This document shows positions 1,140 to 18,691 of a stretch of 33,510 nt of DNA, piece after piece (the first letter of the stretch is position 1; the number at the start of each line of letters is the position of its first letter). The notes beneath the pieces are model-generated. The model made no database searches, had not been told where the DNA came from, and was given only the letters and a program-made list of their open reading frames with translations. This stretch comes from Bacteroidales bacterium (GTDB lineage Bacteria; Bacteroidota; Bacteroidia; Bacteroidales; UBA7960): assembly GCA_019429365.1 (NCBI GenBank), contig JAHYJD010000031.1:1-33510 (forward strand). The letters run 5' to 3'. The position numbers were made by a program, and so were the translations under genes.

Positions 1140-1472
1140 ATGAATAAATCGCCGGATAAAACGCAGCTTAAAGCGTTAATTGTTAAAAAGATTGTTCAGG
1201 TTGAGGATCTGATTAAAGAACTCGAAGACCTGACAAGACCCATTGCCCCTGATGTGGCCATAGGCCGTGTGTCGAGAATGGACGCCATAAACAACAAAAG
1301 CGTGAATGAAGCTGCCCTGCGTCAGGCCAGGGATAAACTGCAGGGGCTGCAGCATGCACTCGACAACATCGATAACCCCTCCTTTGGGGTCTGTTCCCGT
1401 TGCGGAACAGAAATTCCCTTGGGCCGAATACTAGTTATGCCCGAAAGCCCAAAATGTATCAGGTGTTCGTAG
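1140..1472 (+). CDS. DksA/TraR-family zinc-finger protein
   Basis: A 110-aa protein of the DksA/TraR C4 zinc-finger group. Members bind the secondary channel of RNA polymerase and tune initiation, often together with (p)ppGpp. Visible features are a helical N-terminal part (about residues 7-75) and a C-terminal zinc knuckle with CSRC at 85-88 and CIRC at 106-109, so four cysteines are present. The GRVSRMDAINN segment (42-52) lies where the coiled-coil tip of DksA would be, but the classic acidic DxxDxA tip is not obvious, so whether it acts like DksA proper is uncertain. The start at 1140 is chosen over a TTG at 1125 because the promoter box covers 1128-1135. It is shorter than E. coli DksA (151 aa), which is normal for this small subfamily. 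Confidence 0.85.
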   Translation: MNKSPDKTQLKALIVKKIVQVEDLIKELEDLTRPIAPDVAIGRVSRMDAINNKSVNEAALRQARDKLQGLQHALDNIDNPSFGVCSRCGTEIPLGRILVMPESPKCIRCS

Positions 1473-1528
1473 ATTTTTCCGGCTATTTCCTTCTGGTATA
1501 AAAGTTTAATTTTCCAGCAGTATTTCTG

Positions 1529-3598
1529 ATGGCTGCAAATCCAATGAAAATGAGTTTAAAAGAAGAAAAAGAATATCTTGGTGTTGTCAAGGAAAAACTA
1601 AAAAATACCCTTTTACTGATTAATGAACGGGTAAAAAGTCAAGCCCGTGAATTGCATGAAACGAAAAAGTACCTGTATGAAAACAAGGCAGGTATGGATC
1701 ATGTGGAAAAGGTGTCGGTGCGACAGTCTGTTACCCAGGGTGCACTCCTCGGCGAAGGGGCGGTTAAGAAAAGGAAACAAATACAAAAACTTCTTGAATC
1801 ACCCTATTTTGGGCGGATCGACTTTTCAGAAAAAGGCCATCATGACAGCATCGCATTGTACATAGGGGTTCATTCCTTTTTTGATGAATCAACGGGCGTA
1901 AACCTGATTCACGATTGGCGGGCTCCCATTTCGAGCATGTTTTATGACTTTGAGCTGGGTGAGGCATTTTACCTTGCCCCAGCCGGCAAGGTGGAGGGAA
2001 GCATTTCGCTGAAGCGGCAATACCGCATCAGGCGCGGGAAGCTGGAGTACATGCTCGAAAACGCTTCCAATGTGTATGATGAATTGCTGCAACAAGAACT
2101 TAGCAGGGCTTCTGATAATAAAATGAAGAATATTGTGGCCACCATTCAGCGTGACCAGAACCCGATTGTGCGAAATGAAACTTCGCGCGTACTGATCATA
2201 CAAGGCGTGGCCGGTTCGGGAAAAACCTCTATTGCCCTTCACCGGATTGCCTTCCTTTTATACCGATTCAAGGATACCATTTCGGCCGACAATATCCTGA
2301 TCATTTCGCCCAACAAGGTTTTTGCCGATTACATTGCCAACGTGCTTCCTGAACTGGGCGAAGAGAAAATTCCGGAAATGGGCATGGAAGAACTGGCTGC
2401 CAAGGTGCTGGAAAATAAATACCAGTTCCAAACCTTTTTTGAACAAGTTGCCTTATTGCTTGAAAAAAATGACAAGGGGCTAAGGGAGCGTATTCAGTTT
2501 AAATCATCAGGCGATTTTTTATCAAAGCTTGAGCAATACCTGGTGCACATCAACAACGAATACTTTGTGCCTGCAGATATTGTGGTGAGCAGAAGCCCGG
2601 TTCCCGCCTGGTTTATTAAGGAGAAATTTGAATCCTTTCACCGATTGCCCATAATGAAAAGGTTTGCTTATATAGCGCAAGCCATTGAAGAGAATATTCG
2701 GTATTATTACAAAAAGGAGGTATCGCTGGCTGAAAGAAAAGAAATTCTTTCGGAAGTCACAAAAATGTTCAGGATCACCAACCTTCGTTTGCTTTATAAG
2801 GATTTTTACGGCTGGTTGGGCAGGCCCGAGTTGCTTAAAATGACCGTCCGGTCAAAGTACGAATATGCTGATGTTTTTCCGTTGGTTTATTTAAAACTGA
2901 GATTAGAAGGCTATCAGGCCTTCGAAAACGTAAAACATCTGCTGGTTGATGAAATGCAGGATTATTCACCTGTGCATTACGCGGTGCTTGCCAGGTTATT
3001 CCCTTGCAACAAAACCATACTGGGCGATGCCAATCAGAAAGTAAGCCTCCTGGGTTCTTCGACAGCAGAGGCCATAAAGGGAGTTTTTCAGGAAGCTGAT
3101 GTGGTGAAATTGCGCCGAAGCTATCGCTCTACTTTCGAAATCACCAGGTTTGCACAGCAAATCCTTCCTGACAGCGACCTGATTGCCATGGAGCGGCATG
3201 GGGAGATGCCTGCTTTGAAAGGGCATCCGGACGAAATGGAAGAAGTCCGGTCTGTCAGTGAGCACATCAAAGAATTCCAAAAGTCCGGTTATCATTCAAT
3301 GGGCCTGATCTGCAAAACACCACAACAGGCCGACTGGCTTTACGAACAACTTAATGGTGCTGCCGGCTCAATAGCCAGAATTACCGATCAAAGTGCTGCC
3401 TATTCCACTGGAATCGTTATCACCACCGTTCATCTTTCAAAGGGGCTGGAATTCGATAAGGTAATCGTTCCCTTTGTTACTTCCCAAAACTACAAAACAG
3501 AACTGGATAAACACTTGCTTTATATTGCCTGCACGCGGGCAATGCACCTGCTCGAACTCAGCTATTCGAAGTCGCCCAGCAAGTTTATTGAAAAATAA
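1529..3598 (+). CDS. helD: HelD-like superfamily 1 (UvrD/Rep-type) helicase
   Basis: A 689-aa SF1 ATPase resembling HelD, the RNA-polymerase-associated motor that frees stalled polymerase, and helicase IV. The N-terminal ~200 residues begin with a long charged helical stretch (8-60), the arm that in HelD reaches into polymerase, followed by the conserved IHDWRAPISSMFYD segment (127-140). Walker A is GVAGSGKTS at 226-234 and motif II is LLVDEMQDY at 471-479. Motif III contains GDANQ (499-503) and motif IV RRSYRST (529-535). Motif V is TTVHLSKGLEFDKV (632-645) and motif VI LLYIACTRA (663-671). All are intact, so an active ATPase is expected. The length is somewhat below the ~775 aa of Bacillus HelD. 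It stands alone, 56 bp after the DksA-like gene and 166 bp before the methyltransferase. A role in repair or defence rather than transcription cannot be excluded. A relic of the same 3' end lies at 18809-18857. Confidence 0.85.
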   Translation: MAANPMKMSLKEEKEYLGVVKEKLKNTLLLINERVKSQARELHETKKYLYENKAGMDHVEKVSVRQSVTQGALLGEGAVKKRKQIQKLLESPYFGRIDFSEKGHHDSIALYIGVHSFFDESTGVNLIHDWRAPISSMFYDFELGEAFYLAPAGKVEGSISLKRQYRIRRGKLEYMLENASNVYDELLQQELSRASDNKMKNIVATIQRDQNPIVRNETSRVLIIQGVAGSGKTSIALHRIAFLLYRFKDTISADNILIISPNKVFADYIANVLPELGEEKIPEMGMEELAAKVLENKYQFQTFFEQVALLLEKNDKGLRERIQFKSSGDFLSKLEQYLVHINNEYFVPADIVVSRSPVPAWFIKEKFESFHRLPIMKRFAYIAQAIEENIRYYYKKEVSLAERKEILSEVTKMFRITNLRLLYKDFYGWLGRPELLKMTVRSKYEYADVFPLVYLKLRLEGYQAFENVKHLLVDEMQDYSPVHYAVLARLFPCNKTILGDANQKVSLLGSSTAEAIKGVFQEADVVKLRRSYRSTFEITRFAQQILPDSDLIAMERHGEMPALKGHPDEMEEVRSVSEHIKEFQKSGYHSMGLICKTPQQADWLYEQLNGAAGSIARITDQSAAYSTGIVITTVHLSKGLEFDKVIVPFVTSQNYKTELDKHLLYIACTRAMHLLELSYSKSPSKFIEK

Positions 3599-3648
3599 TC
3601 TTATTGCTGAATTGCGGTTTTGTTCTGTTTATCAAAAAATATTTTTAC

Positions 3649-3671
3649 TTCATTTATGATATATAAATGAA
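3649..3671. repeat. Perfect inverted repeat upstream of the restriction-modification gene
   Basis: Nine-base arms TTCATTTAT (3649-3657) and ATAAATGAA (3663-3671) are exact reverse complements around the 5-base spacer GATAT. The element lies between helD and the methyltransferase-nuclease gene, about 95 bp before its start and just before AT-rich promoter-like sequence (TTTG at 3675-3678 and TACATTTTG at 3693-3701, one base off the -7 consensus). The symmetry suits a dimeric repressor operator; an RNA hairpin at the end of helD is also possible, although no T-run follows. Confidence 0.45.
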
Positions 3672-3764
3672 AAGTTTGTATTTTGCCCCATGTACATTTT
3701 GTTTACGGAAGCCGCCAATGCTGCTTAATTTAATGTTTGGCCGTTTTTAAATAAAGTTTTTCAA

Positions 3765-6700
3765 ATGACCCCTGTTCAGAAATATTTAAAAAGCGTTGCA
3801 ACAAGGTTTAAGCAAGGTATTTCATCAGAGCATTCTTACCGATCAGATCTTGAGGTATTACTTCGTGAACTTGTGAAAGGGATTTCGGTTACCAACGAAC
3901 CTTCAAAAGTTACGGATTGCGGAAACCCCGATTATATTATTACCAGGAACAATATTCCTGTAGGTTACATAGAGGCCAAAGATATTGGCAAGGACCTCAA
4001 TGGCAAACAATATAAAGAGCAACTTACACGGTACAAAAACGCCCTTGATAATCTGATCGTTACAGATTATATCTGGTTTCAGTTTTTTAATCATGGCAAG
4101 CTCGTAAGCGAGGTGAGAATTGGGCAAAAGCTTGATGAACGAACCATTAAACTTTTGCCTGAGCATTTTGAAGAATTTGAAAACCTCATTCAGAACTTCG
4201 GTCAGTTTAGCGGTCAGACGATCCGGTCTTCCCGTAAATTGGCCGAAATGATGGCGGCAAAAGCCAGGTTACTTCAGCACATACTCGAACAGGCCATTAC
4301 CTCTGATGAGGAAAACCAGGAGAACACCTCATTAAAAGGGCAGTACGAAGCTTTTAAGTCAGTGCTGATTCACGACCTTTCGCCCAAAGACTTTGCCGAT
4401 ATTTATGCACAGACCCTTGCATATGGCATGTTTGCCGCCAGGCTGCACGACCCAACCCTCGACACTTTTACCCGCCAGGAAGCAGCAGAACTGATACCAA
4501 AGTCGAACCCATTTTTGAGAAGGTTGTTTCAGTATGTAGCAGGCTACGACATAGATGAGCGTATCAGATCTACGGTTGACAACCTGGCAGAAGTGTTCCG
4601 TTCAACCAATGTGGAAGAGCTTTTAAAAAGCTTTCAAAAAGACGGGCAGGGTGAAGATCCCATTATTCATTTCTATGAAGACTTTCTGGCTCAATACGAC
4701 CCAAAACTGCGAAAATCGAGGGGCGTATGGTACACCCCCGAGCCAGTGGTAAACTTTATTGTAAGAGCCGTTGACGATATTCTGAAAAGTGAGTTTGATC
4801 TGCCCTTGGGCTTGGCTGACACTTCAACAACCAGAATACAAGTTAATGTTCAGGGCAAAAAAGTTGAAAAGGAAGTGCATAAAGTGCAAATACTTGATCC
4901 TGCTACTGGCACCGGCACCTTCCTGGCCGAAGTAGTGAAACTTGTGCACAAAAAGTTTGAAGGCCAGCAAGGCATCTGGAGTAATTATGTGGAGAACCAC
5001 CTTATACCACGCTTAAACGGGTTTGAACTGCTGATGGCCAGTTATGCCATGGCCCACCTGAAACTTGACCTGCTGCTGACTGAAACGGGTTTTAAACCTA
5101 CCAAAGACCAGCGCTTGCGGGTTTTTCTAACCAACAGCCTTGAAGAATACCACCCTGATACAGGTACCTTGTTTGCAAATTGGGTTAGCTCAGAGGCTAA
5201 TGAGGCCAACTTTATCAAAAGGGATACACCGGTGATGGTGATTATTGGGAACCCACCTTATAGTGGTGAAAGTAAAAATAAAGGCGAATGGATAATGAGC
5301 CTAATGGAAGATTATAAAAAAGAACCAGGAGGGAAAGAAAAACTAAAAGAGCAAAATTCAAAATTTATTAATGACGATTATGTAAAGTTTTTGCGTTTCG
5401 GCCAGCATTTCGTAGAAAAAAACGGAAGTGGAATTTTAGCTTTCATTAATCCTCACGGTTTTTTAGACAATCCAACATATAGGGGAATGCGTTGGCACTT
5501 ATTGAATACATATGATAAAATTTATACATTGGATCTACATGGAAACGCCAAGAAAAAAGAAACGGCGCCTGACGGTTCAGCAGATATAAATGTTTTTGAT
5601 ATAGAACAAGGAGTTTCAATAAATTTTTTTATTAAAACAGGAAAAAAGAAACCAGATGAACTTGGGCAAGTATTCCACTATGACTTATACGGGAAACGTG
5701 ACTTAAAATATGATTTCCTTTCTCACAACAATTTAAAGTCTATAGAGTACCAAAGTTTTACTCCCTTTAGAAACAGCTTTCTATTTAAAAGCATTGATGA
5801 ATCAATGCTCAAAAAATATAATGAAGGTATTAACCCTATAAGCCTTTTCACAGTCAATGTAATGGGTTTTCAAACTCATAGAGATAGCTTTGCTATTGAT
5901 TTTGAAATGAAAAACATAAAATCAAGAGCATTAGATCTTATTGATAAAAAAATTACGAACGAAGAACTTAATAAAAAATACTCTATCAGTGATAATCGAG
6001 ATTGGAAACTTGAAAAAGCAAGAAATGAAATTCAATCTGATAAAAATTGGGAAAGTAAGGCAGTAAAGTGTGGATATAGACCTTTTGATGAAAGACCTTG
6101 CTATTTCAGTTATGTAATGATGGATTATCCAAGAAAGGAATTAATTCAAAATGTTTTAAATAAGGAAAATATTTTATTAGGTATTGGAAGACAAGGTTCG
6201 GCGGTTGGTGATATAGATTGGTGTTTAACAACTGTATCAAAGCACCCCGTAGATGCCAATATTTTTAGACGTGGCGGTGTAAATCTTTTTCCTCTATATT
6301 TATATCCCGATAATTCAGGACAGCAAACAATTGAACATACAACGAAAAAAATACCAAATCTTAATCTCGAAATTGTCAACCTAATTGAAAGCAAGATCGG
6401 CTTAACCTTTACTAGTGAAAAGAAAAGAGAGGAAAAATCTTTTGCTCCAATTGACATTTTGGATTATATCTATGCAGTTTTGCATTCACCTTCTTACCGC
6501 ACAAAATACAAGGATTTTTTAAAAACAGATTTTCCAAAAATTCCTTACCCAAAAGACCCTGAAACATTCTGGCAATTGGTAGCTCTCGGTGAACAACTGC
6601 GGGAAATTCATTTGCTGGAAAGCCCGATGGTAAATAACTTCATAACGCAATACCCGGTGGATGGAAGCAACGAGGTGGAGAAAATCACTTACCAGGATGG

Positions 6701-11323: not shown

Positions 11324-13564
11324 ATGAAGACATCACGCAGGCAATTTATTAAAACTTCATCCCTGTATGCCGGAGGGCTTGCCATGGCGGGCTCAGGGCT
11401 TAAGGCCGCATCGGGTTTGCTGAAAAATCTGGGCGGGAACGTTGAAGGCCTTTCGCGCACCCCAACTTATTGCGAAATCTGTTTCTGGCAGTGTGCGGGT
11501 TGGGTTTACAAGGATGATGACGGCCGAATTCAGAAGATCATTGGCAACGATGATGACCCGCATTGCAACGGACGGCTTTGTCCGCGAGGCACTGGTGGTG
11601 TGGGTATGTACCATGATGAGGATCGCCTGAAGACTCCTCTGATTAGACGAACGGTCGATGGCAAGCAGGTTTTTGAGGAAGCCACTTGGGAGGAAGCCCT
11701 TGATTTCATTGCAGAAAAAATGAAGTCTGTTGCTGCAGAGTTTGGTCCTGAATGCGTAGTGCTGTTTAGCCATGGTTCTGGCGGTGCCCACTTGGGTCAT
11801 ATGCTTAAGGCTTTTGGCTCGCAATCTATCTCTGCCCCATCATTTGCCCAGTGCCGCGGCCCGCGCGAGGTGGCCTTCCTGACCACTTATGGTGATATCG
11901 TTTATTCCCCTGAAAGAACGGATATTCGCGATTCGCGCTGCCTGGTGTTTATTGGTTATCACCTGGGCGAAAACATGCACAACGGGCAGGTTCAGGAAAT
12001 GTCGGACGCCATCGACAAGGGCGCTACCATTATTACGGTTGATCCAAGGTACTCGGTGGCAGCCAGCAAGTCGAAGTACTGGCTACCCATAAAACCTGCC
12101 ACAGACCTGGCACTCCTATTGTCATGGATTCATGTTTTGATTGAGAATGGATGGTACGATAAGGAATACGTGGAGAAGTACACCTTTGGTTTTGAACAGC
12201 TTCGCGAGCACGTAAAGCAATATACTCCAGAGTGGGCTTATGGCATCACTACTATCGATCCGAACGTGATCAGGCGCACTGCCAAGGAAATGTATGATGC
12301 TTCGCCGGCGGTTATTGTGCACCCCGGTCGGCATACCACCTGGTATGGTGATGACACCCAGCGCCTGAGGGCGGTGGCCATCCTGAATGCCATTCTGGGC
12401 TCATGGGGACGACGTGGCGGCTTTTATTTCCCCGAAAGGGTTCAGTTTCCTGAATATCCCACTCCGGCCTATCCGGTACCCAATCGGTTACCTACTGAAG
12501 CCTATGCCGGAAAATATAACCTGGCCAATGAAGTAGTAAGCAATGGCATTTGCGACGCAACCATACCCTCGGTAGATTCGGATTGTAACTTCAAGGTTTG
12601 GCTGGTAAATGGCACAAACCTGATGCTTGCGCTTCCTGATCAGAAAAAAACGCTTCAAGCCATCCAGGCCCTTGAACTGGTTGTGGTGATCGATACCATG
12701 CCGGTAGAAATTACAGGGTATGCCGATGTGGTGCTTCCCGAATGTACTTTCCTCGAACGCTATGATATGGTGAGGGTTTCGCGACACCGCGAACCAACCC
12801 TTGCACTGCGCATGCCTGCGACCGAACCAAAATACCATTCAAAGCCCGGCGACTGGATTGCCAGGGAACTTGGAATTCGACTTGGCCTCGCGGCTTATTT
12901 CCCATGGAAGGACATGGAAGAGCATCTTGACTGGCAGCTGAAGCAAGTGGGTTCTTCCCTGGAGGAAATGAAAAGAATTGGGGTGAAGAAATTCCCCAGG
13001 CAATACGATGACCTTTACCTGCACGAAGGCGAGGACTTTTTCTTCAATACCAATACCGGAAAGATTGAATTGTACTCAACCGATATGGAAGAAGAAGGTT
13101 TTCCGCCATTGCCGGTTTACACCGAACATGAGCAGCCGCCGGAAGGTTTTTATCGCCTGAATTACGGAAGGGCACCCATGCATACTTTCGGGCGAACGGC
13201 CAACAACCCCAACCTTACCGATTTGATGGATGAGAATACCCTTTGGGTGAATCCCAAAGTGGCCAATCTTTGGGGGCTGGAAAACGACCAGTACATCAAG
13301 CTCAGAAACCAGGATGGCATTGTGTCCACATTTTCCATTAAGGTTAGAATAACCGAACGCATTCGCTGGGACAGTGTATACATGGTGCATGGCTTTGGGC
13401 ATGACAATAAAAAACTTTCCCGGGCTCACGGAAGGGGCATTAACGATACCGAGCTAATTACGAATGTTAAAATTGACCCTGTGATGGGAGGTACCGGAAT
13501 GCGAAGCAATTTTGTTACGTTTGTTTTTGAGAACGATAATGCAGGAGAGGAGGTTGAAGCATGA
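11324..13564 (+). CDS. Molybdopterin oxidoreductase catalytic subunit, polysulfide/thiosulfate reductase type (PsrA/PhsA-like)
   Basis: A 746-aa catalytic subunit of the DMSO-reductase superfamily, exported by the Tat pathway. The N-terminus MKTSRRQFIKTSS carries the twin-arginine motif (R5, R6), followed by a hydrophobic stretch. A [4Fe-4S] site is formed by C50, C53, C57 and C86, the CxxCxxxC-x28-C spacing of polysulfide-reductase-type enzymes. C177 in SFAQCRGP sits where PsrA has its molybdenum-ligating cysteine, so a Cys-ligated Mo is predicted. The C-terminal ~120 residues hold the molybdopterin-dinucleotide binding domain. The next gene overlaps by 4 bases (ATGA at 13561-13564). With the ferredoxin and NrfD subunits it makes the usual three-part quinone-linked periplasmic complex. 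The substrate (polysulfide, thiosulfate, tetrathionate, arsenate or other) cannot be proven; the YeeE and rhodanese neighbours point to sulfur. Confidence 0.9.
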   Translation: MKTSRRQFIKTSSLYAGGLAMAGSGLKAASGLLKNLGGNVEGLSRTPTYCEICFWQCAGWVYKDDDGRIQKIIGNDDDPHCNGRLCPRGTGGVGMYHDEDRLKTPLIRRTVDGKQVFEEATWEEALDFIAEKMKSVAAEFGPECVVLFSHGSGGAHLGHMLKAFGSQSISAPSFAQCRGPREVAFLTTYGDIVYSPERTDIRDSRCLVFIGYHLGENMHNGQVQEMSDAIDKGATIITVDPRYSVAASKSKYWLPIKPATDLALLLSWIHVLIENGWYDKEYVEKYTFGFEQLREHVKQYTPEWAYGITTIDPNVIRRTAKEMYDASPAVIVHPGRHTTWYGDDTQRLRAVAILNAILGSWGRRGGFYFPERVQFPEYPTPAYPVPNRLPTEAYAGKYNLANEVVSNGICDATIPSVDSDCNFKVWLVNGTNLMLALPDQKKTLQAIQALELVVVIDTMPVEITGYADVVLPECTFLERYDMVRVSRHREPTLALRMPATEPKYHSKPGDWIARELGIRLGLAAYFPWKDMEEHLDWQLKQVGSSLEEMKRIGVKKFPRQYDDLYLHEGEDFFFNTNTGKIELYSTDMEEEGFPPLPVYTEHEQPPEGFYRLNYGRAPMHTFGRTANNPNLTDLMDENTLWVNPKVANLWGLENDQYIKLRNQDGIVSTFSIKVRITERIRWDSVYMVHGFGHDNKKLSRAHGRGINDTELITNVKIDPVMGGTGMRSNFVTFVFENDNAGEEVEA

Positions 13565-14097
13565 GGTATGCAATGGCTGTAGATACCAAAAAATGTGTGG
13601 GTTGCAGCGACTGTGTGGTTGCCTGCCAGACCGAAAATAATGTGCCCATAGGTTATTGCCGCGACTGGATCGTGGAGGTGACCGATGGCACTTACCCGCA
13701 ACTGGAAATTGAAATCCGTTCGGAGCGTTGCAACCATTGTGAAAATGCACCATGCGTTCGTTGCTGTCCGACAGGTGCCAGTCATTACAGCGATGGAGGT
13801 ACTGTGCTTGTTAAAAAGTACCATTGCATTGGTTGTGGCGCCTGCATTGCTTCCTGTCCTTACGATGCCCGTTTCCCGCATCCCGAAGGCTACGTGGATA
13901 AGTGTACCTTTTGCCTCGACAACAGGGTGAAGAAAGGTATGGACCCGGCCTGCGTGAGTGTTTGCCCAACCAAGTGCCTGTATTTTGGCGACCTGGACGA
14001 TCCGCGCAGTCCCGTTTCCCAGATCCTGAAAAAGAGAAAATACAAAACCCTGATTCCTGAAGCAGGCACAAAACCACATTTGTATTTTCTGATTTAA
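13561..14097 (+). CDS. Four-cluster ferredoxin subunit (PsrB-like)
   Basis: A 178-aa electron-transfer subunit that passes electrons between the molybdenum subunit and the membrane subunit. Four cysteine sets are visible: CVGCSDCVVAC (12-22), CNHCENAPCVRCCP (57-70), CIGCGACIASCP (89-100), and CTFC (115-118) with CVSVCP (131-136) after an 11-residue insert. This gives sixteen ligand positions, enough for four [4Fe-4S] clusters, exactly as in PsrB, PhsB and DmsB. There is no signal peptide; such subunits are carried across the membrane with the Tat-tagged A subunit. It overlaps the A gene by 4 bases, which indicates coupled translation. Confidence 0.92.
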   Translation: MRYAMAVDTKKCVGCSDCVVACQTENNVPIGYCRDWIVEVTDGTYPQLEIEIRSERCNHCENAPCVRCCPTGASHYSDGGTVLVKKYHCIGCGACIASCPYDARFPHPEGYVDKCTFCLDNRVKKGMDPACVSVCPTKCLYFGDLDDPRSPVSQILKKRKYKTLIPEAGTKPHLYFLI

Positions 14098-14141: not shown

Positions 14142-15083
14142 ATGAGAGAGGAAATCATAACCAGCGGGCGCATGAACCCCATGATTGATCCGCAACTGCA
14201 TATCTGGCACTGGCATATCCCCCTGTATCTGTTTCTTGGCGGGCTGGCCGCCGGTATTCTTTTCTTCGCCGCTCTGTACACCATTCTTGGCAAAGAAAAA
14301 GAAAACCCAACAGCGGTAAAAATTGCCCCTTTTATTACACCTATTTTGTTGGTGGTGGGTCTTTTTGCTCTTTTTCTTGACCTGAACCACCAGGCCTATT
14401 TTTGGCGGCTTTACACCACCATCAGGCTCGAATCGCCCATGTCGTGGGGCGCATGGACACTCATGGTGGTTACGCCTATTTCATTCATTTGGTGTGCCCT
14501 GAACATTAAAGAGATCTTTCCACGCTGGGACTGGAAGTTCAAATTTTTGTACGATCTGGATGCTTTTTTCCGCAAACACCTGATCACCATGTCGTGGATT
14601 CTGCTCATCTTTTCCCTTATTCTGGGCATGTACACCGGCATCCTGTTTTCGGCTTTCAACGCCCGTCCGCTGTGGAACACTTCTATCCTGGGGCCTTTGT
14701 TCCTTACTTCAGGCTTGTCTACCGGCGCGGCTGCCATTATTCTGATGAGTAAGTCGCATGAGGAGCGGTTGAGGTTTGCCCGCATTGATATTATGCTGAT
14801 TGGTATTGAAATGTTCCTGATCGTGCATATGTTTATGGGTTTTCTGGCAAGCACACAGGTGCATATCGAGGCGGCCGAGCTTTTTCTTGGCGGTCCATAC
14901 ACCACGCCATTCTGGCTTTTTGTGTTTACTTTGGGTTTGGCAGTTCCTGCCATCCTTGAAGTGCTGGAATTACGAAAATTCAAGGTTCCATTTATGATTG
15001 CACCCATTCTGGTGTTGATGGGCGGGCTGTTGTTCCGTTTTATTATTGCCTATGCCGGACAGGCCAGCCGCTGGCTTTATTAA
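14142..15083 (+). CDS. NrfD/PsrC-type membrane subunit
   Basis: A 313-aa integral membrane protein of the NrfD/PsrC family, which anchors the complex and exchanges electrons with menaquinone. It begins with a short cytoplasmic stretch and the IWHWHIPLYLFLGGLAAGILFF segment typical of the family (about residues 21-42), then has roughly eight or nine hydrophobic segments, including PFITPILLVVGLFALFLDL, WILLIFSLILGMYTGILFS and IMLIGIEMFLIVHMFMGFL. There are no heme ligands of the cytochrome-b kind, as expected. It starts 44 bp after the ferredoxin gene. Together the three genes follow the A-B-C order of polysulfide reductase. Confidence 0.9.
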   Translation: MREEIITSGRMNPMIDPQLHIWHWHIPLYLFLGGLAAGILFFAALYTILGKEKENPTAVKIAPFITPILLVVGLFALFLDLNHQAYFWRLYTTIRLESPMSWGAWTLMVVTPISFIWCALNIKEIFPRWDWKFKFLYDLDAFFRKHLITMSWILLIFSLILGMYTGILFSAFNARPLWNTSILGPLFLTSGLSTGAAAIILMSKSHEERLRFARIDIMLIGIEMFLIVHMFMGFLASTQVHIEAAELFLGGPYTTPFWLFVFTLGLAVPAILEVLELRKFKVPFMIAPILVLMGGLLFRFIIAYAGQASRWLY

Positions 15084-15112: not shown

Positions 15113-15634
15113 ATGAGCGAAATTAAAAAGACAAAGTATATGAATCCTTACCTGGCCGGGGTTTTGCTGGGCCTGGTTGTGCTGTCTGCCAACCTGATCT
15201 CGGGCCGTGGCCTGGGTGCAAGTGGAGCAGTAAAGAGTGCCATTGTGGCTACGGTCGATGTAGTGGCTCCTGCCCACACCGAGTCGTCAGAGTATTATGA
15301 GATGGCTCTTGGAACCCACGGCAACCCATTGAATAACTGGCTGGTTTACCAGGTGCTGGGGGTTTTGGTGGGTGCATTTCTAAGTGGAGTGCTCGCGCGC
15401 AGACTTAAATGGAAAGTTGAACATAGTCCAAAGATCACCTCAAAGACCCGCCTGATGTTTGCCCTGGCCGGAGGGGTGTTGTTTGGCTTTGGCTCTCAGC
15501 TTGGAAGGGGCTGCACCTCTGGCGCTGCCCTCAGCGGAATGGCCGTTTTCTCATTGGGGGGCTTCATTACCATGGCCGCCATTTTCGGCACCGCTTTCGC
15601 CCTGGCCTACTTTTTTCGTAAACTCTGGATTTAA
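15113..15634 (+). CDS. YeeE/YedE family half-protein (thiosulfate-transporter-like), first copy
   Basis: A 173-aa membrane protein of the YeeE/YedE (sulf_transp) family. Full-length YeeE/TsuA takes up thiosulfate and uses conserved cysteines that contact the substrate. This gene encodes half such a protein: about four membrane segments (13-30, 74-95, 112-131, 141-167) and the family signature GSQLGRGCTSGAALSG (127-142), whose only cysteine is C134. The next gene encodes the matching second half, 26 bp away with its own ATG. I read the two as separate subunits that would assemble as a pair. It starts 29 bp after the NrfD gene, so it belongs to the respiratory operon and probably moves the sulfur compound that the complex uses or makes. 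Confidence 0.85.
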   Translation: MSEIKKTKYMNPYLAGVLLGLVVLSANLISGRGLGASGAVKSAIVATVDVVAPAHTESSEYYEMALGTHGNPLNNWLVYQVLGVLVGAFLSGVLARRLKWKVEHSPKITSKTRLMFALAGGVLFGFGSQLGRGCTSGAALSGMAVFSLGGFITMAAIFGTAFALAYFFRKLWI

Positions 15635-15660: not shown

Positions 15661-16251
15661 ATGGCTCCTTTTGTTGTATACGACATAATATCAGAAAACA
15701 CCAACTTATTGATGGCGTTTTTCATTGGGATAGGCTTCGGTTTTATCCTTGAGCAGGCCGGGTTTTCTTCCAGCCGCAAGCTGGCCGGCGTTTTTTACGG
15801 TTATGATGCGGTAGTTTTGAAGGTATTTTTCACTGCCGCCATCGTGGGCATGCTTGGACTGCTGTTTTTCAGTCTTTTTGGCTGGGTCGATATGAGCGTG
15901 ATTTATGTGAATGAAACCTACCTCTATTCAGCCATTGTGGGAGGGGTAATTATGGGTGCAGGTTTTATTATGGGCGGCTACTGCCCCGGAACCAGCTTTT
16001 GTGCGGCAACCATCGGAAAGATTGATGCCATTGTTTTTATTGGAGGTATGTTTCTGGGCGTCTTTATTTTTGGCGAAGGATATCCGCTCTGGAAGAACCT
16101 TTATATGGCCGAATTCATGGGCTTCCCAAAAATCAGCGAGTTTTTTGGGATTAATGAAGGGATTTTCGTACTTTTAGTAATCGTGGCTGCTGTGCTCATG
16201 TTCTGGGGCGCAGAATGGGCCGAAAAGAAATTTCCCCGCGAAGAATATTAA
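15661..16251 (+). CDS. YeeE/YedE family half-protein (thiosulfate-transporter-like), second copy
   Basis: A 196-aa membrane protein, the partner of the preceding gene. It has about five hydrophobic segments and the second YeeE signature, GGYCPGTSFCAATIGK (105-120), with cysteines C108 and C114. A second family motif is visible early: EQAGFSSSRKLAGVF (31-45). The two proteins together give the three or so conserved cysteines that a full-length transporter has. The direction of transport cannot be deduced. The rhodanese-like gene starts 17 bp downstream, so the sulfur carrier and the transporter are probably made together. Confidence 0.85.
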   Translation: MAPFVVYDIISENTNLLMAFFIGIGFGFILEQAGFSSSRKLAGVFYGYDAVVLKVFFTAAIVGMLGLLFFSLFGWVDMSVIYVNETYLYSAIVGGVIMGAGFIMGGYCPGTSFCAATIGKIDAIVFIGGMFLGVFIFGEGYPLWKNLYMAEFMGFPKISEFFGINEGIFVLLVIVAAVLMFWGAEWAEKKFPREEY

Positions 16252-16268: not shown

Positions 16269-16910
16269 ATGAAAAAGTTTCAGTTTACACCGCGTCAGAT
16301 GCTTTCAGTGGTCATCCTGTCACTCGGGATCATTATTGCTGCAGTGCCAAAAGATACCACCACTCCTTATAAACTCAGCGCAGATCAAATTCTTGAAGAA
16401 ATGAAAAGCGGAACCCAATACCTTTATCCTGATCTGATCGCTCAGATGCTGGTGGAGGGGGATCCAACCCTGCAGTTGATCGATGTTCGCCCTCCGGCTG
16501 AGTATGAAAAGTATCACTTGCCCGGGGCTATAAATATTCCATTCGACGAATTGCTTTCATCCGACTACCAGTACCTGCTGAATCAGGACGTGATGATGAA
16601 TGTGCTGTATGCCAATGGCACCACCCGGGCCAACGAAGCCTGGATGCTGATCAGGCAACTTGGTTACGATAACAACTACGTGCTTACCGGAGGTCTGAAT
16701 TACTGGGTCGAAACCATTCTTAATCCGCAGGCGCCTGCAACTAGCAGTCCGGATGACGAATTTGCGCGCTATGATTTCCGCAAGGCTGCCAGTGGTGCAT
16801 TGGGCGGAGGGGCAGTGGCTCCGGTCGAACAAGGAAGTACTGCACCAGCAGCCATTCCCAGGCCCAGACCCCAGCAGAAAAAGCAAGCCGTGCAAGGCGG
16901 TTGTTCCTGA
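16269..16910 (+). CDS. Exported rhodanese-like protein lacking the catalytic cysteine, with C-terminal GGCS tail
   Basis: A 213-aa protein with an N-terminal hydrophobic anchor or signal (about 11-26), then a rhodanese fold: LQLIDVRPPAEYEKYHLPGA (68-87) is the standard first half. The active-site loop, normally CxxGxxR, reads Y114-A-N-G-T-T-R120, so the catalytic cysteine is replaced by tyrosine. After the domain comes a flexible Ala/Pro/Gly/Gln-rich linker (~153-208) ending in QGGCS. C212, second from the end, is the only cysteine in the whole protein. This resembles the swinging GGCGG arm of the sulfur carrier SoxY and suggests a persulfide- or thiosulfonate-carrying role in the periplasm. 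The start at 16269 was chosen because an upstream alternative at 16215 lies inside the YeeE gene and places charged residues before the signal. It is the last gene of the operon. Confidence 0.82.
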   Translation: MKKFQFTPRQMLSVVILSLGIIIAAVPKDTTTPYKLSADQILEEMKSGTQYLYPDLIAQMLVEGDPTLQLIDVRPPAEYEKYHLPGAINIPFDELLSSDYQYLLNQDVMMNVLYANGTTRANEAWMLIRQLGYDNNYVLTGGLNYWVETILNPQAPATSSPDDEFARYDFRKAASGALGGGAVAPVEQGSTAPAAIPRPRPQQKKQAVQGGCS

Positions 16911-16933: not shown

Positions 16934-18691
16934 TTATTTATTTTTGCCTTCCGGCGAAAAGAAGGTATTGTTGGTTTTTTCTAAAATGGTGCTGGCAATT
17001 TCATCAACAGTTTCCACAGAAACATTGAAAACATAAACATCGCCTAAGTTCCATTTTCTGATCACAGGTTTTAACAAGCTTTCCCTTACAATCCATAACT
17101 GGGGGAAGCCACTGTTTTTTATCACAACTTCCAATGCAGGTGCCCAGCCCTGATCGTTAATTTCAAGTGGACCAATCTCATCTATAACAAGAAGATCATT
17201 CTTCTGTTTAAGGCTTTCGAGAATGATTTTCCGGCCAAATTCAATTCCTTTTTCATCGAAATAAAACCGTCCAACCCTGACTTTATTCTTGCCGGGATCA
17301 AATGAGCAAAGTTCTTTCTGAATACTGGTTTGAATGTCTCTTAATAAATAAGCTTCCCGGCTTTGGTCGTTGGTGTTTCCAACCGAAAAAAAACCGGCAG
17401 GGCTTATTCCTCCTTGCTTCAGCTTCTCAACCACTTGCATGGCAAATTTGGTTTTCCCTTCATTAATTTTTCCTGTAAGGACAAATACCATTGGACGATT
17501 TTTGCCCATGAGGGAAAACATTTCGAGCAGCGACTGCGAGCGTTTCAGCATGGCATGGGTCATTTTTCTGAATCCCAGCACCTTTTTCGTTTGCGAAGAA
17601 AATTCTTCCATGATGCCCGGAAGGGCTGCAAAAGAGAGTTCCAGCGATTCGTAAAGGCTCTGCAAACCTCTTGCATAAAGCAGGTTTTTGATCACCGGAT
17701 TTTTCAGTTCAATGCTTATGGCCGTAAACCCGCCAAGCAAGACCAATGCCCGAAGGCTCATTTTTACCCCGATTACCAGGCCTTCGGTATTAAAGGGTTC
17801 GTGCAAGGAAAACCCCTGCCAGAATACCGCAGAAAACAAAATGATAAACCCAAGCTGCAGCCATAATCCTGGCTTTTTTAGGTAGCGCATGTGTTGGCCA
17901 TAACGCCAGTAGGTGAAAAAAAGCCAGAAAAAGGAAAAAATGGCAGAAATTTTCAGGCTTGAATAACTTATTACCAGCATTCCCAAAACCAGCATAAAAA
18001 AAGCTATGAAAAGCAAGGGCAGGGAATGCTGGCGCTTTTTGGAGTGGCTAAACAGGTCGCTTTTTGCCTGGATTGGAACAGGGGAGTTAAGAGCCTCTTT
18101 TTCATGAGTCTTGAGATACCTTTGGCCGGTACCATAGCCAAGAATGCCTGCAATGGCTCCGCTCATAAGGTAAACTGCCGAAAGTATCCACAGCAGATTT
18201 GCAGGAGAAAGACTCTCTATCCGGAGCTGGCGGGTGGCAAAAAGGGTCATGTTTTCAAGTAACCTGACAAAATCCAAGCCATAAAGAATCAGCAGTGTTG
18301 CGGCTTTTTGCAACAGGGCGCTGAAAACAGCCAATGCGCCGCCAATGGCATAGGCCACAGGGTTTTTTCCCGCGAGCCTTATTATCATTTCCAGTATCAG
18401 CGCTTCAGAAAGAATGCCGATCATTGGGCCCAGGATAATGGCGCTTGGCGAAATGGATTTCATCAAAGCGCAGATCAGGCCTGCCCGCCAAATAATCCCG
18501 TTTTCGCGCCAAAGCTGAAAAAAGGAGATAATCAGAAAAACGGTAATAAAAGAAAGGGTAGTGCCGGCCAACGGAATCTTCAGGTTGTGAAGCAAACTGC
18601 CAATAATGATCTCAATGGTGGCCCACAAACTCCCCACCACGGCAGCCTTCAGCCATTTATCCGACAAATGTTTCTGTGGGAATAATTCCAT
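16934..18691 (-). CDS. Membrane protein (ECF-transporter-like) fused to a THEP1-like P-loop NTPase
   Basis: A 585-aa fusion. Residues ~14-190 form about six membrane segments that read like an ECF-type S component. Residues ~220-395 form four more, followed by amphipathic helices (LLYARGLQSLYESLELSFAA, cut at 20; then LPGIMEEFSSQTKK) that recall the coupling helices of EcfT/CbiQ. Residues ~400-575 form a P-loop domain with Walker A GKINEGKTK (407-415), the AGFFSVG segment (432-438) and Walker B LVIDEIGPLE (501-510), the pattern of THEP1-type nucleoside triphosphatases. A transporter with its own energy domain, or a membrane-tethered nucleotide enzyme, both fit. It converges on the sulfur operon with a gap of 23 bp, so supply of molybdate, tungstate or another cofactor part for the molybdoenzyme is a possible role. 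The substrate is unknown. The -7 box at 18734-18727 lies ~35 nt upstream. Confidence 0.68.
   Translation of the reverse strand: MELFPQKHLSDKWLKAAVVGSLWATIEIIIGSLLHNLKIPLAGTTLSFITVFLIISFFQLWRENGIIWRAGLICALMKSISPSAIILGPMIGILSEALILEMIIRLAGKNPVAYAIGGALAVFSALLQKAATLLILYGLDFVRLLENMTLFATRQLRIESLSPANLLWILSAVYLMSGAIAGILGYGTGQRYLKTHEKEALNSPVPIQAKSDLFSHSKKRQHSLPLLFIAFFMLVLGMLVISYSSLKISAIFSFFWLFFTYWRYGQHMRYLKKPGLWLQLGFIILFSAVFWQGFSLHEPFNTEGLVIGVKMSLRALVLLGGFTAISIELKNPVIKNLLYARGLQSLYESLELSFAALPGIMEEFSSQTKKVLGFRKMTHAMLKRSQSLLEMFSLMGKNRPMVFVLTGKINEGKTKFAMQVVEKLKQGGISPAGFFSVGNTNDQSREAYLLRDIQTSIQKELCSFDPGKNKVRVGRFYFDEKGIEFGRKIILESLKQKNDLLVIDEIGPLEINDQGWAPALEVVIKNSGFPQLWIVRESLLKPVIRKWNLGDVYVFNVSVETVDEIASTILEKTNNTFFSPEGKNK

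Follow-up and report, generated by a model that had tools for sequence, protein, structure and literature searches.

A YeeE-linked rhodanese without an active-loop cysteine bears a conserved C-terminal Gly-Cys arm and is a candidate sulfur carrier in Bacteroidota

In a 33,510-nucleotide stretch of DNA from a Bacteroidales bacterium (GenBank assembly GCA_019429365.1, contig JAHYJD010000031.1; hereafter the window) we identify a rhodanese-like protein that lacks the catalytic cysteine of its fold and bears its only cysteine at the end of an arm predicted to be flexible. The gene stands next to those of a PsrABC-type reductase and a split YeeE transporter, and the Gly-Cys end of the arm is kept in all 122 distinct homologues that come first after such a split YeeE pair. 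We consider it probable that the protein is a membrane-tethered dead rhodanese whose cysteine arm carries zero-valent sulfur between the reductase and the YeeE pair.

Results

Translation of the gene agrees with the initial annotation, which had described a GGCS end, a single cysteine in 213 residues and a loop without cysteine: the product terminates in KKQAVQGGCS, its one cysteine is C212 and its loop reads LYANGTTR (Table 1). The protein matches PF00581 over residues 64-148 with an E-value of 1.2e-16 (61.4 bits against a cut-off of 22.2), and no further Pfam domain was found in it at E 0.01. Its AlphaFold2 model (mean pLDDT 83.3) matches solved rhodaneses in Foldseek and VIA-align comparisons, the best with a Z of 15.0 and an rmsd of 1.9 over 100 aligned residues, placing the protein in the rhodanese family with a fold that, as modelled, is that of an ordinary rhodanese. 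An Ala/Pro/Gly/Gln-rich linker of about 55 residues had also been described. In the model it is flexible only in part: residues from about 181 to 213 are disordered, with pLDDT below 50 over most of them, but residues 162-178 form a helix.

The canonical rhodanese loop is CxxGxR. The active-loop cysteine of a catalytic rhodanese or thiosulfate sulfurtransferase is absent from the window protein, which has Ala115 instead. In the L020/L046 locus the loop of the second paralog, YCNNGILANQVW, and that of the first, YSNGTTLATEAW, are of equal length, and for this reason the catalytic-cysteine place in the window protein is most likely A115, after Y114, and not Y114 itself. The earlier conclusion of a loop without catalytic cysteine stands, while its register was off by one residue. 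Among 122 distinct first paralogs, 103 have Ser at this place.

Table 1 Features of the window protein and of the genes upstream of it, with the evidence for each.
Feature	Position	Strand	Evidence
PsrA/PhsA-like molybdopterin subunit, twin-arginine-like signal SRRQFIK	11324..13564	+	Pfam; NCBIfam PhsA; signal by eye
PsrB-like iron-sulfur subunit	13561..14097	+	Fer4_11 and related models
PsrC/NrfD-like membrane subunit	14142..15083	+	PF03916, E 1.2e-44
YeeE C-terminal half (PmpA-like), Cys in GRGCTSG	15113..15634	+	PF04143 positions 173-309
YeeE N-terminal half (PmpB-like), Cys in GGYCPGT	15661..16251	+	PF04143 positions 11-157; profile of relatives aligned to StYeeE
Tailed rhodanese-like protein, 213 aa	16269..16910	+	Translation; PF00581; AlphaFold2 model
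N-terminal membrane anchor, residues 8-24 (predicted)	16290..16340	+	Model helix 8-24; hydropathy and charge survey of homologues
Rhodanese domain, residues 64-148	16458..16712	+	Pfam match
Loop YANGTTR, residues 114-120, Ala115 most likely at the catalytic-Cys place	16608..16628	+	Translation; alignment of 241 homologues
Disordered arm (predicted), residues 181-213, basic near its end	16809..16907	+	pLDDT; conservation profile by distance from Cys
Terminal GGCS with the only cysteine, C212	16896..16907	+	Conservation in 122 distinct first paralogs

The rhodanese gene lies downstream of psrA-psrB-psrC and the two YeeE halves, all in the same direction. This placement, already noted in the window, holds beyond it: a PsrABC match is present in the loci of 103 of the 122 split-locus first paralogs, and the gene order psrA-psrB-psrC-yeeE-yeeE-rhodanese was found again in distant members of the phylum. 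The PsrA-like subunit matches NCBIfam PhsA with E 3.5e-136, a match below that model's cut-off, and the C-terminal and N-terminal YeeE halves are those named PmpA and PmpB in excerpts of PMC11582611. In a second arrangement, a multiheme cytochrome (PF11783) and a cytochrome b561 are followed by YeeE and then by a YeeE-rhodanese fusion. We take PF11783 to be the octaheme tetrathionate reductase family. One or both of these cytochromes replace PsrABC in 36 of 49 fusion loci, showing that PsrABC is not the sole partner of tailed rhodaneses. Neither PsrABC nor the cytochromes were found in 19 of the 122 first-paralog loci and 12 of the 49 fusion loci, many of them short, and for these a reductase link is not proven.

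Facing the operon on the reverse strand of the window (16934-18691) is a gene for a 585-aa protein with a membrane part and an NTPase_1 domain. Among 130 tailed split loci, many of which are short, relatives of its NTPase part were seen in 11 and of its membrane part in 14. By eye, a MerR-like regulator gene lies near the operon in 10 loci (L180, L184, L191, L197, L211, L217, L269, L270, L272 and L278), and apparent molybdenum-cofactor synthesis genes lie near a psr-yeeE-rhodanese operon in L270 (2425-6635).

Homologues were gathered in several ways. At E 1e-10, 70 of 147 relatives had a homologue, and the loci of those 70 were taken; at E 1e-12, 71 of 395 genomes of the phylum had one, and 30 of those loci, the stronger matches, were read, the weaker ones, some with internal stops, being left out. 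Before counting, we removed ORFs cut off by a contig end as well as duplicates sharing the same last 150 residues (293 to 286). With the named loci fetched by YeeE included, this gave a pooled set of 286 rhodanese-type ORFs made up of 192 single-domain proteins, 49 YeeE fusions and 45 two-domain rhodaneses. We scored a tail as a C-terminus of GC plus zero or one residue, and took as first paralog the first complete rhodanese after the split YeeE pair. All counts come from sequences that share ancestry and do not represent independent events. The rhodanese search model contains tailed sequences, including their tail columns, and may favour tailed ones. A fetch with YeeE is independent of the tail, and its 80 named loci therefore provide a cleaner test; they are the best 80 of 556 relatives, that is, the closest YeeE relatives, and belong to Bacteroidota and 'Candidatus Neomarinimicrobiota', all metagenome-assembled. 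In a plasmid collection 14 records matched distantly, each below 80% query coverage.

The tail is present in all 122 distinct first paralogs of split loci. By protein type, it occurs in 179 of 192 single-domain rhodaneses, 47 of 49 YeeE-rhodanese fusions and 33 of 45 two-domain rhodaneses; by position, in 31 of 32 separate rhodaneses of fusion loci, 21 of 32 second paralogs and 5 of 6 unplaced sequences. When loci were fetched by YeeE alone, all 76 uncut loci among the best 80 of 556 relatives bore it (75 first rhodaneses and 1 fusion), leaving out L143, L171, L174 and L210, which are cut before the rhodanese end. The same 80 loci hold 16 further, tail-less ORFs, namely 9 second paralogs, 6 two-domain rhodaneses and 1 full-length YeeE caught by mistake. 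Each of the 30 loci read from the 395-genome search likewise contains an ORF ending in GC plus zero or one residue. As a background, this end occurs in 11 of 2902 other ORFs of at least 100 aa in the fetched loci, a set that is not dereplicated and includes non-genes, and in 0 of 686 PsrABC, YeeE and cytochrome ORFs, also not dereplicated. The two tail-less fusions, L036 and L043, are seemingly near-identical, and the tail-less ORF of L092 looks like an unrelated rhodanese picked up by the search.

These 122 first paralogs and 76 loci bear out the expectation that the tail cysteine is conserved. Two patterns had been named as contrary to it, close homologues with a loop cysteine and no tail, and a tail that is not kept; neither was found for the YeeE-adjacent protein among the 122 first paralogs, of which 100 have exactly one cysteine. 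Several control rhodaneses away from YeeE pairs combine a Cys loop with a tail-less end, among them an MBL-rhodanese fusion and a 430-aa protein, both from the window's own genome. The control set covers part of the matches, includes some non-rhodanese ORFs and was read with a loop pattern that misses loops, and we give no count for it; its exceptions are the L258 protein described below, L256, ending ECGC, L260, ending SGCC, and a two-domain rhodanese in L223, ending AGC.

Some individual cases deserve mention in their own right. A TrhO-like rhodanese (by eye) in L258 (1567-2664) has no YeeE link and ends NGGCE, and a similar one in L262 is without that end. The window's own genome has 9 rhodanese domain matches. 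In it, a YeeE-like gene lies near an MBL-rhodanese fusion (L251, G000:C138:36000-41500, positions 1276-3863) whose loop contains Cys (ICSSGNRSS) and which ends without GGC; it contrasts naturally with the YeeE-rhodanese pair of the window. A rhodanese-thioredoxin fusion of the same genome (by eye; L249, 6727-7458), with a signal-like N-terminus and the loop YCNTGYRS, is a possible partner. We also searched this genome for GGC, zero or one residue and a stop, TAG stops left out (49 + 34 matches, one place occurring in both; 60 of the 83 readable). Those 60 matches gave, besides the window gene, 4 ORFs, each inside a longer overlapping ORF, and a general C-terminal tag in this genome was rejected.

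Read backwards from the cysteine, the 122 first paralogs have C in 122, G in 122 and then G in 108, E in 13 and D in 1, so the positions of G211 and C212 in the window protein are invariant and that of G210 is the one shared by G, E and D. Lys stands at -6 in 100 and at -7 in 102 of the 122, while positions -9 to -25 are variable except for a Pro at -15 in 68. The conserved features of the arm end are only the G, the G/E/D place, the C and the Lys cluster, and the arm varies elsewhere. Over the last 16 residues, net charge averages +4.5 in first and +3.3 in second paralogs of split loci, +0.6 in fusions, and -1.0 both in separate rhodaneses of fusion loci and in two-domain rhodaneses. A basic arm is no defining feature of the tail.

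Tails from one locus match each other. Over the 7 residues that precede GC, 116 within-locus tailed pairs share 3.75 residues on average, compared with 2.35 (sd 0.09) when same-class partners were swapped among loci, and none of 2000 shuffles reached the observed agreement; in this comparison the relatedness of loci is uncorrected and same-locus pairs are not independent. The type of ending (Cys last, or one following residue) agrees in 99% of within-locus pairs and in 79% of shuffled ones, and the excess of agreement disappears 20-30 residues upstream. At agreeing residues the third codon base is identical in 393 of 783 cases (50%); the codon usage of the two genes of each pair predicts 43% (720 residues), which argues against recent gene conversion as the main cause of the matching tails. 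The tails of L095 are identical over 12 compared residues and share third bases at 3 of the 12. Those of L078 and L114 have the look of recent copying, and older copying followed by synonymous drift could account for part of the matching.

The initial annotation raised the question of whether a loop without cysteine and a C-terminal tail are always found in the same protein. The loop cysteine is indeed absent in 121 of the 122 first paralogs and present in 1. None of the 49 fusions and none of the 32 separate rhodaneses of fusion loci has Cys at the loop position. Among the 32 second paralogs it was counted in 3, all of them with the tail, or in 4 if the misregistered L140 row is included. On the other hand, at least one Cys loop was detected by a rough pattern in 31 of 33 tailed two-domain rhodaneses, and all 11 tail-less second paralogs (of 32) have a loop without Cys. 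With these two groups, a strict coupling is not supported. As judged from the alignments, tail and loop-cysteine loss are separable and the tail is a module on several proteins of the locus; because Cys-loop two-domain rhodaneses and second paralogs bear it, it is not simply a result of the loss of the loop cysteine. One tailed rhodanese (L140, 11393-11965, ending SGGC) has a CKKGDR loop. It is separate from the YeeE pair of its locus, and a multiheme cytochrome and cytochrome b561 lie upstream of it; the same record holds a psr-yeeE-tailed-rhodanese operon.

Extracytoplasmic signals are found on several of these proteins. Of the 45 two-domain rhodaneses, 38 match a lipobox pattern and 28 have both lipobox and tail; among the 7 outside the pattern, several have what by eye resembles a lipobox or have no start. 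Of the 32 second paralogs, 5 match the pattern, 4 of them with the GC tail. Around the N-terminal helix, 89 of 154 first paralogs have a higher net charge on the stretch before it than on the stretch behind it, and 34 have a lower one. Given the lipoboxes, the anchors and this charge asymmetry, the tails are predicted to be, most likely, periplasmic.

C293, C91 and C22 of StYeeE make up a cysteine relay through the membrane (excerpts of PMC11073785). By profile count against StYeeE, the C91-equivalent cysteine is present in all 176 distinct YeeE N-halves and the conserved pore cysteine of the C-half in all 167 distinct ones. The column of C22 has Cys in 0 of 176 N-halves and holds Ser in 155, Gly in 14, Thr in 4, Asn in 1 and a gap in 2. 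Split YeeE pairs have in general one conserved cysteine per half (excerpts of PMC11582611), and the loss of the C22 equivalent is therefore not specific to tailed loci. According to excerpts of PMC10812762, the split YedE1E2 imports zero-valent sulfur and needs both cysteines, whereas full-length YedE3 did not accelerate polysulfide uptake. TusA (PF01206) has no match in the window protein and none in its genome at E 0.01, with a control that was positive in 11 of 14 genomes; SoxY (PF13501) likewise has none in the genome at E 0.01, with a weak control in which 1 of 14 genomes matched and none over the cut-off. We considered the tail cysteine as a replacement of YeeE C22 and rejected this in its simple form: C22 is cytoplasmic (excerpts of PMC11073785) and the tails are predicted to be periplasmic. 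A model of a YeeE-rhodanese fusion (L217; mean pLDDT 54.2, pTM 0.28) is too poor to place the arm.

Discussion

In the carrier role that we regard as probable for the window protein, a flexible arm, basic in this arrangement, would extend a Gly-Gly-Cys end from a catalytically dead and membrane-tethered rhodanese domain. The terminal thiol, lying in the periplasm, would most likely bind zero-valent sulfur in the form of a persulfide or perhaps a thiosulfonate, and the arm would swing it between a respiratory sulfur reductase and the mouth of the split YeeE transporter. The reductase partner would be PsrABC here and the multiheme cytochrome with cytochrome b561 in most fusion loci; in loci that have one, a Cys-loop two-domain rhodanese could serve to charge the arms or discharge them. 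We infer a persulfide held by the arm between reductase and transporter because both handle reduced sulfur, and the sulfur cargo of the thiol, its species, the direction of flow and the dock of the arm are all put forward in this conditional sense.

A wider reading, which we hold as possible rather than probable, is that interchangeable Gly-Gly-Cys and Glu-Gly-Cys arms make up a shared periplasmic sulfur-carrier system with a common dock at the split YeeE pore or at the reductase. The dead rhodanese, the YeeE-rhodanese fusion and the two-domain Cys-loop rhodanese would then carry the same co-evolving tail. If this is true, a YeeE-type transporter that has no cytoplasmic third Cys would be served on its periplasmic face by a cysteine relay of shared arms, in a genome without a detectable TusA-type partner.

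The matching of same-locus tails, where linkers do not match, would also suit a docking or assembly tag that joins the rhodanese domains of a locus to a common partner, the YeeE pair or the reductase, its cysteine acting as a disulfide lock and carrying no sulfur. Recent copying mostly fails to explain the match, and the 100 of 122 first paralogs with no second Cys mean that any disulfide would be interchain. We nevertheless think a docking tag unlikely: docking has no need of an invariant Gly-Cys end, and the neighbours are sulfur-chemistry genes. More doubtful is a cysteine that works as a redox or metal sensor or ligand, the arm binding copper, zinc or heme iron or signalling the presence of sulfide or oxidant to the complex. 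By general chemistry, an exposed thiol on its own would react with metals and oxidants, but His, Met and a second Cys are absent from the three commonest residues at the 25 positions before the Cys, and rhodanese is the only Pfam domain of the protein.

C-terminal tags with conserved cysteines do exist, MYXO-CTERM being an example, and the motif studied here is strictly terminal and common to several proteins of one locus. A processing or sorting signal leading to lipid attachment or cleavage is nonetheless very improbable in our view, for no hydrophobic segment accompanies the motif, its carriers are already anchored by a hydrophobic segment or a lipobox, and the genome-wide search for GGC plus zero or one residue and a TAA or TGA stop gave, among the 60 of 83 matches that were read, only the window gene as a convincing protein end. 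As for an ordinary rhodanese with a chance or decaying tail, rhodanese domains are common and the window genome has further ones (9 domain matches); this is by far the least credible account, contradicted by a tail kept in 122 of 122 distinct first paralogs with the stop zero or one residue past the Cys.

The tail bears on how periplasmic zero-valent sulfur is held and passed to respiratory reductases and YeeE-type transporters. A conserved Cys arm beside the transporter, or fused to it, makes sulfur handover testable by one point mutation. A YeeE-linked rhodanese ending GGC or EGC also offers a signature for sulfur-metabolising Bacteroidota, with examples from Neomarinimicrobiota; since the 80 named records (best 80 of 556) are all metagenome-assembled, such sequence signatures are much of what can be known.

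Sud belongs to the rhodaneses, has a single loop cysteine and feeds PsrABC. In Wolinella succinogenes it is a periplasmic polysulfide-sulfur transferase, with up to ten sulfur atoms bound under experimental conditions (excerpts of PMC3397948). The window protein is likewise a periplasmic rhodanese linked to Psr, its location being predicted, but it has no loop Cys, is membrane-tethered and bears its thiol on a C-terminal arm, and its operon adds a YeeE pair. SoxY carries periplasmic sulfur on a swinging arm, at the cysteine of its C-terminal GGCGG (excerpts of PMC6067878 and PMC5336275). The window protein shares a Cys on a flexible, Gly-rich C-terminal arm (GGCS, with predicted disorder); it differs in that PF13501 does not match it and in its motif, GGCS with Lys before it. 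LbpA of the Hdr-like pathway binds lipoate and has a Cys near its C-terminus, often beside glycines, which its authors likened to SoxY; it is compared with GcvH, and no rhodanese domain is described for it in the excerpts of PMC6067878, whereas the window protein is a rhodanese.

Other parallels come from the transporter side. YeeD/TsuB is a TusA-like partner that supplies a 'fourth cysteine' to the YeeE relay on the cytoplasmic face, at C22 (excerpts of PMC11073785). It has in common with the present system a partner-protein cysteine serving YeeE; here, in contrast, none of 176 N-halves has the third YeeE Cys, the genome search for TusA gave nothing at E 0.01, and the predicted place of the partner thiol is the periplasmic side. 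The two membrane genes adjoining the window rhodanese are halves of the split YeeE/YedE1E2 (PmpAB) kind, for which the excerpts of PMC10812762 and PMC11582611 mention no partner of the tailed rhodanese type. The SoxY cysteine was suggested, not shown, to present sulfur to SoxT, which is related to YeeE (excerpts of PMC11582611). In the open-licence literature of PubMed Central, titles and abstract openings among the matches listed held no tailed, cysteine-less rhodanese, which is weak evidence of absence. The window protein fails the loop Cys of Sud and the SoxY domain of SoxY and is a member of neither; what it resembles is a Sud-like role combined with a SoxY-like design.
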